From Scatophagus argus (Eukaryota; Chordata; Actinopteri; Scatophagidae): a stretch of 64,000 nt of DNA. Positions 28,922-49,181 of this stretch are shown piece by piece. The notes beneath the pieces were generated by a model. The model made no database searches. It had not been told where the DNA came from and was given only the letters and a program-made list of their open reading frames with translations. A program made the translations under genes and the position numbers. The stretch's first letter is position 1. Each line of letters begins with the position of its first letter. The stretch spans positions 14,679,872-14,743,871 of the forward strand of contig NC_058499.1 in the NCBI RefSeq assembly GCF_020382885.2, written 5' to 3'.

Positions 28922-31900
28922 TCATATTAATAAGTCTTTCTGTGTTTGGGGCGTGTGTGTTTTAAGGGGCTGTTTTAACGAGTGCTGCTGTGGCCGAGTG
29001 TCCTGTAGGGGCGTGGCAGGTTTTCCCTGCACTGTGTCCTTTACTTTTGGTCCTTTAGAGGGCACAACTGTCCGACTGTCAGATCCAGGCTTTGAGGAAG
29101 AGCCTCGAGAGTCACTGTGATGGTGGGTCTTAGGCCTACTGTCTGTGAAGGAAAGGGCCAGTGTTTGGTGAGCCTCCATAGGCTTAAAGAGGTCAAAGGT
29201 GATGAGTGTCCGAGGTGGTTTGTGTTCTGGTAGCGCAGTACCAGAGGCAGACTTCTTCTTTTCCTCTTTACTGCTGATGTCTTTATCCTTCTTTCCTTCT
29301 TTCTTTACCTGAATGTTGGCATGTTTGGGAGTGCCCGTCTTCCCATCTTCTCTCCCCAGTTTTGCCTGCACCACCTGTGTACCCGCCGCATTGCCCTCCT
29401 TGTGCCCGCTTTTCTCTTTCTTTCCAAGTGAAGGCTTGTGTTTATGTGAACAGGTGTCTCGAGCCTCCTCTCTGTCTGGCCGCAGGTGAGACGCTCCCTG
29501 CGTGCCTCCCCTGTCTTTATCGTGCTCCTTCTCCCTCTTGACGTGGGGTTGAGTCTTTGAGTCCCACTTCTCATCTCTCTGTGCAGGCAGGGATGTTTGA
29601 GAGACTTTACTGCCCTCTCTTGTCCGCTCCTCGTCCTCCTTTCTTCTTATCTGTGGCGACGGCTGCGTCGATGTACTACCCTCTCTTCCTCCCTCGGCTT
29701 TAGCCTTGTCCTGCTCTCTCACCCTGTCCTTGTCTCTATCCCTGTCTTTCCCTCTATCCTTTTTATCCTTTTCCTTCTCTTTATTCCTATCCTTGTCCTT
29801 CTTTTCCTTCTCTTTAACCCTGTCCTTTTCATCTTTCTCTCTTTTTCCTTTATCTTTTTCCTTTTTGATCTGTGGCGTGTTGTAAGAGCTTGCTACACTA
29901 TCTTTAGTTTTTTCTCTTAGACCTTGACCTGGTACTGTTGTCTTTTGCTGCCTCTCTTCCTCCACATCATTCTCCTTTCTCGATTGCTGTAGTGACTTTA
30001 AGGATGCACTGTCCACTCCACCGTCTTCATGGCCCTTCTGAAGTGTCCTGCATGCGTCTGCATCTTCATCTCCCCCACCCATGCAATCCTCTTCCTCATC
30101 TTCCTCAGCTTTAGGCTCCATTAGCGTGTGAGTGATTACACCTTCATCTCCCTCCTTCTTGACTACAGGTAGGTGTGTTGTTAACGACGCCATTTCCACT
30201 CTGTTCTCTTGCTCCTCCTCCTTGAAAATCTGTGTCGGAGTTTGCGAGGGCAGCCCCTCCCTTCCCTCGGTCTCCTCGTCCTCTAGCTTTGTCTGTACAG
30301 CGGGGTCACACTCCTTCCCCTCAACCTCCTTGTCTTGCTCCTCTTCTTTGATATGAAGTGTCACGACTCCGGGTGGATCCTTCTCCTCTTCTTTCTCCTC
30401 TTCCTCCTCCTCTTCTTCATGTTGGTGATACTGTTTGAGTCTGATATGCCAGGCCAGACTGCAGACAGCAGACACAGTTTTGAACTGGTGAACAACTCCT
30501 CTGGGAATGAAGTAGATGTCATCGTGGTAGAGTTGGATTCGAGCATATCGGATCCCCTCTCTCCTCAGCTGGTTCAGTTTGGCATCATCGATCCACTGTA
30601 CACACTGTGGAGGCGGTGCACACAAACACATGAGATTTCAGCAGTCCCTCAAAATAAGCAAATGTTTTAATTCCCACGAGTACTCTGAAGTGATTAATAA
30701 CAGTTGCATGTTGGAGGTCAAAGAAAATCTCTTCTTTTAGCTTTATGTTTTGCACTTAAAGCTGCATTGTTTGACTTTTTTGGACACTTGGGGATAATCC
30801 AACATGCTGTAAACACAGCTGTGACATTATCACCCATAAAGCTGTGTGGGTGAAAATATTAGCACAACATTTCCTTTTTTCTTTTTTTTTTTACACATTC
30901 AGCAGACATGGACCAACATTATCATTCATTTGGAAAAAGCAATGAGCTGAAACCCATGCTAAAGCAACACAGGAGGGTGACAGTTAATCTGCAGATTCAT
31001 AACTACAAAAGCAACCACATTTTATATTACAGTCAACTGATTTATTGCTAATGTAAAAATATTGACTAGTGCAGGTTGAAAGGATGTTTGATGACACTTG
31101 ATCTCACAGTCACATAAAAAAAGATCTATTTATACTGCTGTACCCTACCAAGCTAAAATTAATAAGTCTAACCCACCTGAGACAGTGGAGGTTCGTGGAG
31201 GTCCAGCTGCAGCCTCATAACCACATCTGGGAAATCTCCAGCGTGAAAACACACAACATCTTTGGTGATCCGGGCAGGAGCGTAACTGCTGTAAGGCAAT
31301 TGGCAAAGTTTTATTTACTGATCAGAGTTAAACTCTGAATGCAAAATAAAAAGCAACACCAGCTGTGTTTCTTACACATCACTGTTTCACAGGAAAAGGC
31401 AATGACACCTTTAACGATGTATTCTGTTATAAGTGTTTTTGCTTATTTACATTGACTGTCTACATTTCATTGCCCTTAACTGTCCATCACAGCAGAACAA
31501 AGGTTATCTAGACAACACATAGCTGTCAGGTTGTATTCAATGCAAATCTGTTTTCCTGGGTGTGTGTACTGTATGTAGTACGGTAAAAAAGAAAAGTCAC
31601 TGTGTACTCACTCCTCTCCGCAACGCACAGCCTTCAGCACACCAACAGCAGCAGTAGTTTGTCTCTCAAACCCCTGACCAATGTGGTCAGCGTGGGCTCT
31701 CGTCCGGTCCTCAAACAGCATCTCCCTGGGCTCGCTGGCTCTGGGTAGATACTGCAGGTTCTTTATCTCATTGGTGGACCTGAAATATGTTTATTCACAA
31801 CAGTCATGATATGTTCCTGATTAAGTACCTGTACATGGCATGTGGTGCTGTAAGATAAGCTGTAAGTATTTCTCAGGTTTTGCTCCATCAGCTTTACTTC

Positions 31901-42800: not shown

Positions 42801-43071
42801 CCTCATGCTTATTGTCCACTATCTCAAAGAGACTGTCTAGGACCACCCAATCCTCCCCACAATCCTCCTTTTTTTCCACCTGTTTCCCTCACAAAGCTTC
42901 TCGCTCCTAATTTCTCTCACAGACTCACTTTCCACTTAACAGCTCCATCCCCTCCCTCCTCTTCTCCCTCCCACCTTACCTCCTCCTTTCACTGTCACTG
43001 CGCTTCTCAAACTGAGGTGGGTCTTTTTTACACTCTCTGCCGCCTCTCCTTTTACTCTTCACTCTCAGGAC

Positions 43072-46000
43072 GTGATGAGGTTAACAGCACTGTGCATATG
43101 TGGGACCCTGCTGGCCCTCTTGAGCTTCTGTTGGACCACAGTGGACTCTGATGAAGGAGATCTCCTTGGGGATAATGGATTTGGGCCCTGTACTGTAACT
43201 CTGAGACCTGAGGGGCCATGCAGACATGAACAGTATGAGAGCACGTGTCCCTACCTATTGAGCCTACCGCCGCTGACTGTCCATTTGCCAAAGCAGCTCA
43301 GAGAGCTGGATACAATCGTGGAGGATCTGCAGAAACTGAAGGATAATGTGGATCAACTGCGGAAGATGTGCGCAGACTGTACAGTAAGCCAACCTGCGAG
43401 AGAGTGTGGAAGGGAAAGAGAAAGCGAGCATGAAAAGCTGAATGAGGGTTCGAATGGACATAAGAATGAGAGGAACTGGCTGAGTGAGACAAATCCTGAG
43501 AGACTAAAAGATTTCAACTATGCGTGTATGACAGACAGGGTTAAAACAGGAAAGACTATGAGAGGCAATGGTGACACTGACTCTGAAAAAAGAACAATTT
43601 TGGAAGAAAAAGGAGGAAAGAAATGGGAAGCAGAACGAGATAGTGATGAAGTAGTCGTAAAAGAAAATGAGGATGAAAAAACCCCAGAACAAGTGACAGA
43701 AAAAGACGGAAAAACTCAGGCAGAGGGGGCAAAAGGAAAGGACAAATTGGAGCAAGCGGCAGTTCCAGCTGCTAGTGGAAATGACAGAAAAGTGGATGTG
43801 GTCATAAAAAAGGTTGCTGAACAAAATAACAGGGGGAGAGAGACAGGCAGAAATAAAGAAAAACACAGAAAGGGGAATTCAAAGGGAGATCGAGAGGACA
43901 CGGAAAACGAAAAGGACAGGAAGATTACCAGTATTATTAAAAATAAGGAGAAAACAGAACAAAATGACCATAACATATGGAGACATGAAACAAAGGAAAG
44001 AGAGAAAAAGACCCAAACAGCAGAAGACAGGGGCAGTGATGGAATAAAGATGTCTGAGGATCATGATGAGCATACAAATAAGGAGCGAGAGCACCACAGC
44101 GAGGAGAGAAAAATGGAACTAGAAAAGAGAATAAAAGTGGAGCAAAATAATGAGAAACCAAAACAGACTGAAAGCATCGAGCGTGCAGAAAAAGAGAAGA
44201 CTATAAAAAAGGGTAAAGTAGGAGAGGATAAGGACAGCGAAACAGGAAACGAGATCAAAACAGAAGGAGAACAAACGGTCCAGAGTGTACAGAGAGACAG
44301 TGATGGAGATTTAGCATCCAGCAAGGCAATCGAGAGGACAGACGACGTTTCAGTCAGTCCGACTCCTCACGCTACCACTAGTTTATATCCAACACACTCC
44401 ATGGACTCAAAAGAAGCTACAAGCTTTGCATCATCTCTTCCATCTCCTCATTTGGCCAGCTCGACTGCAATTCCAATCACAAGCGTCAATAAAGGGATGA
44501 CAATAACTGCTGATACACCACCAACCACAAGTACGGACATAGAAGCAGATGGCATTTTTGAGCACTCAAGCATTGATGCAGAGGCAGGCTTTTGGACCAC
44601 AAGTAGGCCAGCAACGACGGCCACAATAAGCACAATGGGTGACCAAGGACAGCAGATAACCAGTGCCACAATGAAGTTCGCCTCTGCAACCAGTGCAAGA
44701 TCTGGGGCAGGCCCCCAGGGACAACTTAGCTCAACTATGGCAACTGCAACTACCACAGCTCATCAGAATTTACACACAACTACATTCACAGGAGTTGCAG
44801 ACCACAGCCACTGGACGGCTAAGAAGAACATCAGCTTAAACATTACGACTGGCATGAAACCTCTACCAGGCCCAGGACCGATGCCTGGTGAAAAGCAAAA
44901 ACCTGTAATTAAGCTTGAAGAAGACCTAAAGCTTAAAAATCCTAAGAATGACCGTAAACGTGGTGAAGCCCCTCTGTCTGACAAAAAAGCAAATTATAAC
45001 CAAAAACAGAAACTTCCTCACCAAAAACCTATAATCAACCAGAAATCTGAACCTGACAGAGACTCTGAAAGAGTCCAAATTCCAGAACCTGACCAAAGAC
45101 CTCTACCTGACAATTTAGCAACTGATCGACATCCAGAAAGCATTCAAAAGCATAAACATGGCAGAGAACATACCACTGCTCAAAAACAGTTACCTGTTCA
45201 AAAGCCAAAGCCTCATCAAAAGTCTGTGCCTCCTGTCCAGAGACCTAGAACCTTAAACACAACTGGTTCTGACAAAGACCCTCTAACTCACCAAGAGCCT
45301 AAACCTGTTGTGATCCCAAGTATTAATCAAAACTTGAAACCTCAGAAAAATCCAGTCCATCCTCTCAAAACTGACAAGCCGGACCAAAAGCAGAAACCTC
45401 ACAAAGACCCAAAAAGTGAAGAAAAAACAAAACCTGATCAAAGCTCTACATTAAACCATTATTTTACACCTGTTCAAGTGCCTGAACCTGAAAACAGTGA
45501 AACAGTAAGTTTTACATCAAAGCCTAAGCAAAAGCCTGTAACAGAGTTAGTGGAAAATTCTGGTGACAATCCCTTGACTGAGCCTAAATCTGTCCAAGAC
45601 TCATCACGCAGACAAAAGCTTATACCTGATCATGGCCTGATCAAACTCCCTGATCAAGAGGTTAAACCCAGCAGTACAACCCTTAAAATAGAAGAAAAGT
45701 CACAACCTGTTCAAACACCTAAACATAACCAAAAACATCCAGAAATCCACACTAAACCAAATGTGAAGCCTAAACCTGGTCAAACATCACAACCTAATCA
45801 AGAGCTTAAAACACCTCAACGAGACCAAACGCCAAACAACAGATCTGTGGATGATGAAATCTCTGACATAGAACCCAACAAAACAGCTCACCCGAGGTCT
45901 CTCCCCAGATACGGGACGCCAACCGAACCTACAGTCGAGCCAGGAGCAACATCTGCTCACAGACCTAAATCATCAATCCATCTAAAGCCAAGTCCAAAGA

Positions 46001-48718
46001 CCAAAACAGATTTAGATCCTCCTCAGACCACCAGGACTACTTCAGACGGAATCCAAAACGCACAAACTGACATGCCACCTGCATCTGGCCCTGTAAAACA
46101 GACTGCTGACACAACTCATTCTCCAGGGGAAAGAGAGGTCAGTCCCGAGGAGGTGAAAACCATCACTCTGGGTTCAAAGACCTCCAACAGCCTGGAGATT
46201 GGAGCCTCGCCTCGCCTTCACACTCTCAATGAAGACTTCACAATCAGCCCAAACAGCAGGATTATGTCTGATCTGAGGCCACAAACAGATGGTCAACCAT
46301 CATCTATCCCAATGACAACAAGACCAAACAAAATCATGCATGGGATCCTCTCAAGTGTTATTCCTAGCATCAGTCCAGGATCCACAAAGCCAAAACAAGT
46401 TTCTAATACTGACTCCAGGTTGCCTGCTAAGATTCTTCATAGTATGGAAGAAACAGTCCCCAGACCAACTCCACATCCAGGCAAAATGATGAATCCAGTC
46501 TTTTCCCCCAGAGCCCAGACTTTCTCCACAGCAAGCCCTGACCTCAGGTTGACAAACCCTGCTACCTCCGGCCCTGATCCCCGGACTCCCGAAGCTTCCA
46601 CTGCCAGTGCACGTGAGCTGCGAGTGAAAATCAACCAAGTGGCTGCTTTCTTTAACAACAGCCTACAGCGTCCAATAGAAAAACCAAAGGACAACCAGGG
46701 AGACAGCAAGCATGACAGCATGGACAGCAAACCACCAACGCTGGTACCATCTAAAGGCAAGAGACATCATTATTTTTTAACACTATTGCCGTGTTTAAGC
46801 TTTGTCTTTGTACGCAAGCTCTAATGTGAATTTACACAACTGTATGGAGGGAGTGTGGTTGTTATTGACAGAGATGGCACGTACTTATATTACCATGGGC
46901 AGCAGCAAAGTGAATTTCCACCACCAATTACAAAACCATATTGTACAATAGTTGCTTAGCTTCAGCCAGTCAACTCAAAGAAATGTATGAATAGTCACTA
47001 AACAAGGACAAAAATACAGATTAAACTGAGGAAGAAAAGAGAGGAGGCATATGCAACAACCACCCGCCTCATAAAAATCTGTTGATTTCTATTCACATTA
47101 CATCACAACAATTAGGCTGAGAGAAAATTGTCAAGGGGCTGTTGTGAATTAGCATTTCAGTGCTCATAATTGTATTACTCATTCAAAATAGCTAATTGGT
47201 ATGACCTGAGCTGAGAGGATTTTAAGTAAGAGGACCACACACTAAGCACTGATGATCTTCCCATAAAAAAACGATAACAGAATTATGTGGTCTGTGATCA
47301 TCTTTGAAAAATACAGGATGTCTAAAGAAGGAATTTGCTTACGTGTGCAAAATGTGTGTGTGTTGTGACTAAGGACAAAAACCACAACTATGTGTAGAGT
47401 CACAGCTTTAAAACATTCAAACCTTCAGTGGGTTACGGGAAGTGAATAATGGTTTACAGGCATCTGGCAGTCAAGTCAATCATTAGACTCATCAGTTTAA
47501 CACCTGTGTTCACATACTATACATGAAATAAACTAACAACCTTATTATGCAGGTGAAATTCAAGAGGATTTTCTCATTTGTTCATGGATTCATACCGCAT
47601 ATTTGTCTTTTACTCATCAAAACGTTCATCAGATTTTTTTTGTTTATTTATTTAGAAAATTCATGTCAATAAACATTGTTATTTTATAGTCACGAAAATC
47701 TGCACTCACTTTTATCTCAAATCCAATTTTGGTTTAAAACGCTAGATTTAATCTACAGTGGGGGTCCGTCTGCAAAGGCTTCAAAAGCACTTCGTGTTTT
47801 ACGGTGGAAAAGTAGTTTTGCACTGACCTGTTGCACTTGTGACCTCATTTCACGGCTGCATCCCAGCTGCAAGACGATAATTTCACCTGCAACGAGACAA
47901 AACAGGACTTTGGTTAAATCACTTGTTAAATGAATAAAGAGGGAAGTTTTGAATGAGAAAAAAAATAATCATAATTCTTTACAATTTCTTCGAATTTCCC
48001 CTGCGCAGTTAACACGATGAAGAGAGACTGCTCCGACTACCTGCTCAGCGGGGACACAAACAGCGGTGTGTACCTGGTGACCCCTGACCTCCGCAGCAGA
48101 AGCTTCCCGGTCTTCTGTGACATGGAGCTGGGTGGAGGAGGGTGGACGCTGCTGCAGCGCCGACAGGACGGCAGCGTGAGCTTCAACCGCACCTGGGCTG
48201 AGTACCGATCAGGCTTCGGGGAGCTGGACGGAGGGGAGTTTTGGTTGGGCAATAACCTGATCCACCTGCTAACCCGGGACAGGGACATGGTACTGCGGGT
48301 GGAGCTGGAGGACTTCGACGGGGCGACGGAGTACGCAGTGTACGAGCAGTTTAGGGTGGCAAGTGAACGGATGCGCTACAGGCTGACGGTGGGCGGGTAC
48401 TCGGGTACCGCAGGTGATGCTCTGCGCTTCAGCAAAAGTTACGATCACAACAACAGACAGTTCACCACTCCTGACAGGGACCACGACCGCTACCCCTCCG
48501 GGAACTGCGGGGCCTACTACAGCTCCGGCTGGTGGTTTGATGCGTGCATGGCTGCAAACCTCAACGGGAGGTACTATGTAGGCAAGTACAAAGGAGTCCG
48601 GGATGGGATTTTCTGGGGGACATGGCATAACATATCTACAGAGTATTACCCCACAAATGACAGACAGTCTTTTAAATCTGTCAGGATGATGATCAGACCA
48701 AAGGGCTTCGCACCCTGA
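43072..48718 (+). CDS. fgl2: FGL2 / fibroleukin with a giant low-complexity stalk
   Basis: FGL2 is a secreted or membrane-associated fibrinogen-related protein with prothrombinase and immunoregulatory roles in mammals. Two exons as in human: 43072-46756 and 48009-48718, total 4,395 nt, 1,464 residues (human 439). Residues 1 to about 24 form a signal peptide. Residues 38-103 match the human N-terminal segment, including CPYLLSLPPLTVHLPKQLRE and the cysteines in CADC. Residues about 105-425 are Lys/Glu-rich, 427-593 Ser/Thr-rich, 600-927 Pro/Lys/Gln-rich and 927-1228 Ser/Thr/Pro-rich. Exon 2 is a normal fibrinogen domain: DCSDYLLSGDTNSGVYLVTP, GGGGWTLLQRRQDGS, calcium-site region TPDRDHDRYPSGNCG, SSGWWFDACMAANLNGRYY, SVRMMIRPKGFAP. 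The junction uses an apparent GC donor; a GT donor at 46613 is also in phase. The paralogue (a or b) is undecided. Confidence 0.92.
46757..48008 (+). other. fgl2 intron
   Basis: Phase 1 intron. The preferred donor is AAAG/GCAAGA at 46756/46757, and the acceptor is CTGCGCAG ending at 48008. Reading through the donor gives a stop TAA at 46822-46824. AATAAA motifs occur inside at about 47527, 47668 and 47933. Confidence 0.65.
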
Positions 48719-49181
48719 GCTGTGACTCTCTGATAGGGCATATTGGGGAAAAAACAGCTCACCATAAGCTCCTAAAATGCTCAGTTCAATTTAACAAAAC
48801 GTAATCCACTATCTACAAAGTTACAGTTATAGTACGCTATTGACACAATGCTGCCGCCTTGTGGTGTTTGATTCTGCAGTACTTATTTGTTTACAGGACA
48901 GTATGACTATGACTGAGGATGTACATAGTTACAAAGGGTATAGTCCTAACTATATGGTATCTATAATCTTAATATGTAGAATGATTTTTTGAGAGTTTAA
49001 TTTGTTTAATGATGAGAGAGGGAAATCTTCCTGTGAGGAGTTATTTTTCAGTGAAGTCTAACGGGTATGAAGCAACAGAGACTGATATATATTATTTATA
49101 TCATTATATTACTGGAAACCTGTTGATGGTTGACTGAAGCTGTTTGGGATGTTTTATAATTAAGACTGTTTTGTTAAGATA

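Follow-up and report, generated by a model that had tools for sequence, protein, structure and literature searches.

A predicted long-stalk FGL2-type gene in Scatophagus argus, with a 1,227-codon open frame ahead of a fibrinogen head

The window, the whole stretch of 64,000 nucleotides of Scatophagus argus DNA that was analysed, carried a predicted fgl2-type gene, one of two such genes detected in the fish's own genome. A stop-free plus-strand open reading frame spanned positions 42940-46824, and from the ATG at 43075 it ran for 1,227 full codons, ending at 46755. This single frame joined an FGL2 N-terminus to 1,124 further codons, referred to here as the stalk, and was followed by a complete fibrinogen domain (FReD) in matching phase. 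The features of the gene are collected in Table 1.

Table 1. Features of the fgl2-type gene, with positions counted from the first letter of the window.
Feature	Position	Strand	Description
FGL2-type N-terminus, residues 1-103	43075..43383	+	Signal-like hydrophobic start (by inspection); C39, C49, C58, C99-A-D-C102
Stalk zone 1, residues 104-422	43384..44340	+	Polyampholyte rich in Lys/Arg and Asp/Glu (composition)
Stalk zone 2, residues 423-590	44341..44844	+	Ser/Thr-rich, most mucin-like part; Ser+Thr 0.35 in blocks 424-503 and 504-583
Stalk zone 3, residues 593-938	44851..45888	+	Degenerate array of hexapeptides close to X-Q-K-P-K-P, repeating every 18 bp
Stalk zone 4, residues 939-1227	45889..46755	+	Ser/Thr/Pro-rich; no significant periodicity
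Candidate coil-start remnant, residues 1180-1197	46612..46665	+	VKINQVAAFFNNS / VKLNRMSASLRNA, local match to the coil exon of the C22 duplicate, score 29
Alternative GT donor	46613..46614	+	Reads in frame into exon 2 (phase 1); score 7.74, among the top 1% of the window's GT/GC sites
GC donor AAAG/GCAAGA	46757..46758	+	Reads in frame into exon 2 (phase 1); score 4.14, top 6%
Exon 2, complete FReD and stop	48009..48718	+	PF00147 Fibrinogen_C; acceptor score 6.58

The identification of the gene as fgl2, made earlier by a sequence-only reading, was upheld by both of its ends. When the N-terminus was searched against the fish's own genome (571 Mb), one other match was detected, on chromosome C22, with 45% identity over residues 38-102 (E 8.1e-11), and cysteines 39, 49, 58, 99 and 102 of the window copy aligned with those of this duplicate. 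We take both N-termini to be FGL2-type, the two having been compared with each other; among solved structures the N-terminus had no relative, the best hit being an endonuclease at E 0.14. Exon 2 matched positions 2-221 of the 221 in Pfam Fibrinogen_C (E 3.9e-84), and its top-scoring solved relatives were FGL1 and angiopoietin-2. The domain contained four cysteines and was 69% identical to the best FGL2 piece on C22 and 47% identical to a match on C23; in an alignment with the C22 duplicate, 158 of 230 residues were the same. The FReD as query drew 5 and 14 pattern-matching stretches from viral and prokaryote contigs, none of which was confirmed. On C22, the N-terminus and then the FReD pieces lay in order within about 8.2 kb, and a reading of the window copy as two unrelated genes was rejected on this shared order. 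Changes in the head numbered 13 in the window copy and 16 in C22, 5 and 17, and 8 and 14 with three outgroups (209, 180 and 117 columns, the last, of only 117, being the C3 outgroup), and the head of the window copy was not accelerated in this relative-rate count.

On both chromosomes fgl2 is followed, without a change of strand, by a leucine-rich-repeat gene that we take to be lrrc17; the two copies match at 64% identity over residues 74-173, in a stretch interrupted by one TAG, and at 50% in a second piece. The neighbour that we presume to be rsbn1-type (rsbn1l) had a weaker C22 match about 0.95 Mb off.

The stalk (residues 104-1227) held no stop in its 1,124 codons, while the other two plus frames over 43384-46755 held 52 and 105 and the minus frames 35, 34 and 68. 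A first-order Markov model (500 simulations) gave an expectation of 51.5 stops and codon-position composition one of 25.5, and the longest open run among the Markov simulations was 234 codons. An ordinary intron was therefore ruled out, because no stops were found against the 25.5-51.5 expected. The claim of one very long open coding exon was supported, and the accompanying claim that its openness implies selection was supported in the form that selection or recent coding use maintains the frame. Third-position GC (GC3) of the stalk was 0.28-0.44, far lower than that of the FReD (0.745) and close to the GC of the downstream intron (0.36), which counts against the long-tether reading developed below. 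Low GC3, and the fact that the stalk matched nothing in Pfam, NCBIfam or solved structures, would also fit a stalk that is not real protein at all, whether a chance frame, a pseudogene, an assembly error or two separate genes. Such an origin is extremely unlikely given the stop statistics, the order of N-terminus and FReD shared with C22, the complete and unaccelerated FReD, and the phase match with exon 2.

Phase-compatible splice sites predicted a two-exon layout for the gene. No canonical GT donor was present at 46756. Towards the end of the frame two in-phase candidates were available, a GC donor at 46757 and a better-scoring GT donor at 46613, either of which may serve exon 1. The earlier claim that the long exon splices to a normal fibrinogen domain was borne out as a predicted phase-matched join, with either donor as a candidate. 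All splice-site scores were built on general consensus frequencies. A further GTAAGC donor, in phase 0 and scoring 5.56 (top 3%), lay at 43384, exactly where the sequence-only reading had begun the stalk, and phase-0 acceptors were found at 45241 (8.26) and 46027 (7.25), while joining 43384 to 46519 would leave an open frame of 418 residues. These sites raised the prospect of an exitron, a coding stalk that is often spliced out so that short, normal-sized and long FGL2 are both made. However, the acceptor at 46519 was absent from the acceptors scoring above 6, a splice from 43384 directly to exon 2 shifts the frame and stops after three codons, and chance alone would be expected to give frame-compatible pairs in 3.4 kb. 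The first-intron sites of C22 scored 10.9 and 13.0, although the exon-2 acceptor of the window copy is itself low. We regard the exitron as unlikely.

The growth of the linker to about 1,100 residues, as first proposed, was upheld by comparison with the duplicate. In C22, a 76-residue low-complexity linker reaches the coil start and is followed by the coiled coil itself and by a further pair of cysteines (a CTTAC stretch). Between the N-terminus and FReD of the window copy, the coil was represented by no more than a short candidate piece of its start, and that with weak support: when the last 81 residues were matched to the C22 coil exon, 88 of 2,000 shuffles did as well, and the next-best place in the stalk scored 28 against 29. 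No cysteine occurred in residues 152-1227, so the second pair is absent, and the segment after the CxxC is hugely longer than in C22 as judged from the two sequences. Should the weak match to the coil start hold, the distance from CxxC to coil start would be about 1,080 residues in the window copy versus 76 in C22. The stalk was not simply the lengthened coiled-coil linker that had been proposed: the added length sits in the flexible part that precedes the coil, and relative to C22 the coil and its second pair of cysteines have largely disappeared.

Composition analysis showed that the four zones described earlier are real. Zone 1 (319 residues) was charged, as claimed for a Lys/Glu-rich zone, but its composition was that of a near-neutral polyampholyte. 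It contained the only two cysteines of the stalk (111 and 151) and the only helices that AlphaFold2 predicted there. A single alpha-helix was rejected for the Lys/Glu zone, as opposite charges at a spacing of 4 were not enriched (18 vs 17.7 expected, residues 239-373). The Pro/Lys/Gln zone, zone 3, was the only part of the stalk with significant periodicity. Protein autocorrelation peaked at lags 6 (z 4.3) and 12 (z 4.4), and the top z over 40 lags was reached by none of 1,000 shuffles; codon shuffling of the DNA gave z of 5.7 at lag 18, 4.6 at 111, 3.8 at 36 and 3.2 at 54. The hexapeptide profile placed Q (0.56) and K (0.45) at neighbouring positions. Tandem Repeats Finder returned only two short rows over 43000-48800, and the period was visible by autocorrelation. 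The loose repeats such as QKPKPHQKS noted before are better described as a decayed hexapeptide array; zone 3 likely grew out of a repeat of 18 bp, now decayed. Of 13 candidates scored in the 571 Mb genome, the one match to the stalk was the stalk itself, and an origin in another gene or repeat family was rejected on the lack of a second match there and of any in Pfam, NCBIfam or solved structures.

The stalk is likely mostly disordered according to prediction. AlphaFold2 gave pLDDT below 50 for 967 of its 1,124 residues, in a single-sequence run that is weak evidence for disorder, and FoldIndex was below 0 in 78% of stalk windows, yet the folded FReD also scored below 0 in 52% of its windows. 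The proposed disorder was thus favoured by the former, while the latter separated stalk from head poorly.

Our findings point, with somewhat better than even confidence, to a long-tether FGL2 composed of an N-terminal disulfide node, a long flexible stalk and a fibrinogen head. We infer that such a protein would be secreted and joined at the N-terminal node, with each head on a long flexible tether that would replace the rigid, doubly disulfide-linked coil. This could allow multivalent long-reach binding or, alternatively, a readily shed head. No furin-type RX(K/R)R site was found in a search of exon 1. By analogy with fibrinogen alpha-C, and most speculatively, the Gln/Lys/Pro repeat zone might be a transglutaminase substrate that fixes the protein to matrix or clot. 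A repeated motif bearing both Gln and Lys was present in zone 3.

The same stalk could have inflated without adaptation, if demands on the linker of one copy eased after duplication and slippage of the repeat then lengthened it, the stalk gaining no function other than to stay open. The decayed 18-bp repeat, the low GC3 and the low-complexity linker at the same place in C22 are consistent with this account, which we consider somewhat doubtful given the loss of the coil and second cysteine pair beneath an unaccelerated head, and given that 1,124 stop-free codons would need ongoing removal of truncations. A mucin-like spacer, in which O-glycans on the Ser/Thr zones make the stalk stiff and keep the head clear of the cell or matrix, the Gln/Lys zone being incidental, seems rather unlikely. 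Ser+Thr was high in the two zone 2 blocks and 0.21-0.29 in 80-residue blocks from residue 904 onward, and the stalk has six N-glycosylation sequons. However, Ser+Thr made up only 216 of the 1,124 residues (19%) and reached 0.35 in those two 80-residue blocks alone (residues 424-583), zone 1 is a charged polyampholyte, and the Ser/Thr zones lacked significant periodicity. Pro/Thr/Ser-rich tandem repeats did not extend across most of the stalk. Of the mucin-like or polyelectrolyte stalk first suggested, the partial Ser/Thr richness stood and the term mucin-like fitted poorly.

FGL2 has been studied as an immune regulator. Oligomeric state matters for this role, as the monomeric soluble form was described as more immunosuppressive than the native oligomer (PMC5356913). 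A duplicate with half of the inter-chain cysteines lost and its head set on a stalk of some 1,100 residues would serve as a natural experiment on the effect of tether length and oligomeric state on FGL2 function. It would likewise illustrate how a disordered region can grow out of a decayed 18-bp coding repeat, the normal-sized copy on C22 being available for comparison. No description of a long-stalk FGL2 form was found in open-licence papers among the matches listed, and PMC7720500 makes no mention of fgl2 or fibrinogen. A still bolder proposal, which we hold to be improbable, is that a fish FGL2 independently gained a fibrinogen-alpha-C-like design after duplication, trading a rigid, doubly disulfide-linked coil for a lectin head on a giant stalk that is elastic and can be cross-linked. 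If true, this FGL2 would be a matrix- or clot-anchored long-tether lectin and not a soluble tetramer.

Like mammalian FGL2 and the C22 duplicate, the window gene has a signal-like start, N-terminal cysteines with a CxxC and a C-terminal FReD. Unlike the C22 duplicate, which has serines there, it lacks serine throughout the 30-residue stretch ahead of the CxxC (LPKQLRELDTIVEDLQKLKDNVDQLRKMC), the place expected for the prothrombinase serine. That serine was given as Ser89 in PMC3721661, and in human FGL2 it is reportedly Ser91. The gene apparently shares two coding exons, predicted in its case, with human FGL2 (PMC3721661, PMC5356913), whose chains are linked via Cys94, 97, 184 and 187 (PMC5356913). 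Unlike FGL2, the window copy would have about 1,080 residues before its candidate coil start, and it lacks the bulk of the coil along with the second cysteine pair (Cys184/187, PMC5356913).

The overall layout also resembles that of fibrinogen alpha-E (fibrinogen-420), in which a disulfide node precedes a lengthy disordered region of degenerate repeats and then, on a separate exon in human, a FReD. On C23, a gene that we take to be alpha-E had a Ser/Gly-rich open frame upstream of its FReD exon, in the same order as the window fgl2. Unlike orthologues, the two share only 47% identity in the FReD, and the C23 upstream frame, at 296 residues stop to stop, is far shorter than the stalk. The fibrinogen alpha-C repeat has 13 residues (PMC8984085), versus 6 in the stalk.

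Cysteine-free hexapeptide repeats with Gln, Lys and Pro are also known from the cementoin domain of trappin-2 (pre-elafin), 38 residues long with five motifs of consensus GQDPVK (PMC3110255). Against the transglutaminase analogy, no Gln or Lys of the GQDPVK motifs was found reactive with epidermal proteins, though the abstract of the paper placed other reactive residues in the domain (PMC3110255). The X-Q-K-P-K-P array differs from trappin-2 in consensus and order, is about 9 times longer and is attached to a different domain. Lubricin (PRG4) is similar in its one long exon, with degenerate Lys/Glu/Pro/Thr repeats (KEPAPTT) between folded ends; unlike the window gene, lubricin has no FReD.

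The open frame that carries the stalk (residues 104-1227 of the window fgl2) extended over 42940-46824 of the plus strand, and from the ATG at 43075 its protein began with MRLTALCICGTLLALLSFCW, which was signal-like by inspection. The sequence-only reading had claimed an uninterrupted long frame, and this was borne out: the stalk frame held 0 stops in 1,124 codons, against an expectation of 51.5 from a first-order Markov model fitted to this sequence and 25.5 from independent codon-position composition, while the remaining five frames held 52, 105, 35, 34, and 68. The longest open run among 500 simulated sequences was 234 codons. These counts and run lengths indicated that the stalk stretch is coding, or was until very recently. 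That the long reading frame exists is close to certain, and constitutive expression of its gene is probable. The main composition argument against a coding stalk is its low GC at third positions, 0.28-0.44 by zone (with borders slightly different from those tabulated) versus 0.553 for the N-terminal part and 0.745 for the fibrinogen-related domain (FReD, the head); low values fit a young or fast-changing segment. We conclude that the window gene is real and unusual, a new FGL2 variant.

Exon 2, encoding the FReD, began at 48009 after CAG, and the frame required a phase-1 donor. The claimed splice from the long exon to the fibrinogen domain could use either of two phase-matched donors close to the 3' end of the long frame; both are in frame with exon 2, and splice sites were scored on consensus frequencies. 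A scripted join of the GC donor to exon 2 gave 1,463 residues, and the stalk exceeded 1,070 residues with either donor. A candidate coil remnant, VKINQVAAFFNNS, sits in the tail between them, which tentatively favours the GC donor over the GT donor. A donor-like GTAAGC was also seen at 43384, exactly where the conserved N-terminus gives way to the stalk. With intron retention, the frame would continue for 22 codons (46757-46824) into a hydrophobic tail, HHYFLTLLPCLSFVFVRKL, and the intron holds four poly-A-signal-like hexamers (47020, 47527, 47668, and 47933); a stalk protein without the head is conceivable from a retained intron.

Features of the window fgl2 and of its duplicate on contig C22
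Feature	Position	Strand	Details
Zone 1	residues 104-422		Lys/Glu-rich, near neutral
Zone 2	residues 423-590		Ser/Thr-rich
Zone 3	residues 593-938		Pro/Lys/Gln-rich
Zone 4	residues 939-1227		Ser/Thr/Pro-rich
GC donor AAAG/GCAAGA	46757	+	phase 1, score 4.14
GT donor	46613	+	phase 1, score 7.74, top 1% of window
C22 fgl2 exon 1	9269510-9270100		197 codons, donor score 10.9
C22 coil exon	starts 9270820		acceptor score 13.0
C22 FReD	up to 9277693		three pieces

All four compositional zones described earlier were seen in the stalk. Only zone 3 showed significant periodicity, with protein identity reaching z 4.3 at lag 6 and z 4.4 at lag 12 and its top z over 40 lags reached by 0 of 1,000 shuffles; no period reached significance in zones 1, 2, and 4, where the top lag had a probability of 0.96, 0.21, and 0.46, respectively. 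The loose repeats claimed for zone 3 therefore correspond to a hexapeptide periodicity. At the DNA level, against 500 codon shuffles, lags of 18, 111, 36, and 54 bases gave z 5.7, 4.6, 3.8, and 3.2, respectively. The hexapeptide profile, built on 39 instances (position 2 Q 0.56, 3 K 0.45, 4 P 0.36, 5 K 0.29, 6 P 0.43), scored 237 on the real zone and a mean of 158 (maximum 180) on 40 shuffles, a gap somewhat flattered by using 40 seeds per shuffle versus 120 for the real sequence.

The proposed disorder of the stalk was examined with two predictors. AlphaFold2, run on the stalk alone as one sequence without an alignment, gave pLDDT <50 for 967 of 1,124 residues and placed helices in zone 1 only. 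FoldIndex was <0 in 78% of stalk windows versus 52% of FReD windows, and because of the latter it discriminates poorly here. Disorder is likely, judging from the composition of the stalk and its scarcity of cysteine and aromatic residues.

In exon 1 of the C22 duplicate, the N-terminal CxxC motif was followed by 76 residues before the coil exon; the window copy had 1,081 residues between CxxC (residues 99-102) and VKINQVAAFFNNS. The latter aligned with VKLNRMSASLRNA, where the C22 coil begins, with a score of 29 (matched by 88 of 2,000 shuffles), the best place along the stalk, with a runner-up at 28. This is only suggestive of a remnant of the coil start. Neither the remainder of the coil nor the second cysteine pair, which is CTTAC in C22, had a visible counterpart in the window copy, whose residues 152-1227 contained no cysteines. 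Human FGL2 is described as 439 residues in two exons (PMC5356913; PMC3721661), with inter-chain links at Cys94, 97, 184, and 187 (PMC5356913), and the mammalian prothrombinase serine is given as Ser89 (PMC3721661). No serine occurred within the 30 residues preceding the window CxxC, and serines were present in the same stretch of the C22 duplicate; this absence would make mammalian-type prothrombinase activity unlikely for the window copy.

All comparative results concern duplicates within the window's own genome (570,666,677 bases, 48 contigs; the window is G000:C7:14679872-14743871), whose size and gene repertoire point to a bony fish. Searching this genome with the N-terminus hit the window itself and one other site, C22:9269666 (45% identity, E 8.1e-11). 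A leucine-rich-repeat gene, which we take to be lrrc17, lay downstream of fgl2 on the same strand at both loci, ~34 kb away on C22 and ~10 kb away in the window; the two C22 pieces of this gene matched at 64% (residues 74-173) and 50% (residues 14-82). The rsbn1-type neighbour had a weaker match ~0.95 Mb away on C22 (43%, E 2.8e-8). These conserved neighbours suggest that the two fgl2 copies arose in the teleost genome duplication. One TAG fell within the 64% match (C22:9312752-9313051), which could mean that this copy is decaying, that the match runs over the edge of an exon, or that there is an error. In the window exon 28922-30637 (minus strand), presumably rsbn1l, a JmjC match that was weak and below threshold (E 0.64) was likewise followed by a long extension of low complexity, rich in Lys and Glu. 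Introns interrupted the C22 duplicate (9269510-9277693) before the coil and within the FReD; the window gene apparently has one, as human FGL2 is reported to have (PMC5356913; PMC3721661), and the difference may come from introns gained by one copy or from losses elsewhere.

The window FReD was complete, with four cysteines and the DRDHDRYPSGNC stretch, in agreement with the normal fibrinogen domain claimed. Relative-rate counts for the head (window copy/C22), with three outgroups, were 13/16 (C23, 209 columns), 5/17 (C15, 180), and 8/14 (C3, 117); by these counts, the stalked copy shows no decay of its head. The fgl2 head was also highly similar to another FReD gene, at C3:14284190-14285456, which matched it at 60% across residues 116-234.

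Judging from its parts, the protein would be secreted, with chains joined by N-terminal disulfides and fibrinogen heads carried on long flexible tethers; absence of the coil and second cysteine pair would loosen the heads. Each consensus unit of the zone 3 repeat contains both Gln and Lys, and the repeat may by analogy serve as a transglutaminase substrate. The C23 gene, which we take to be fibrinogen alpha-E, has a layout of the same kind, a FReD exon preceded by a Ser/Gly-rich open frame of 296 residues, although its disordered part is much shorter. Zone 3 recalls the GQDPVK repeats of trappin-2; that work reports no Gln or Lys reactive with epidermal proteins in these cementoin motifs, although its abstract assigns other reactive residues to the cementoin domain (PMC3110255). 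Zone 3 likewise recalls fibrinogen alpha-C, described as a cross-linked, disordered region with a repeat unit of 13 residues (PMC8984085).
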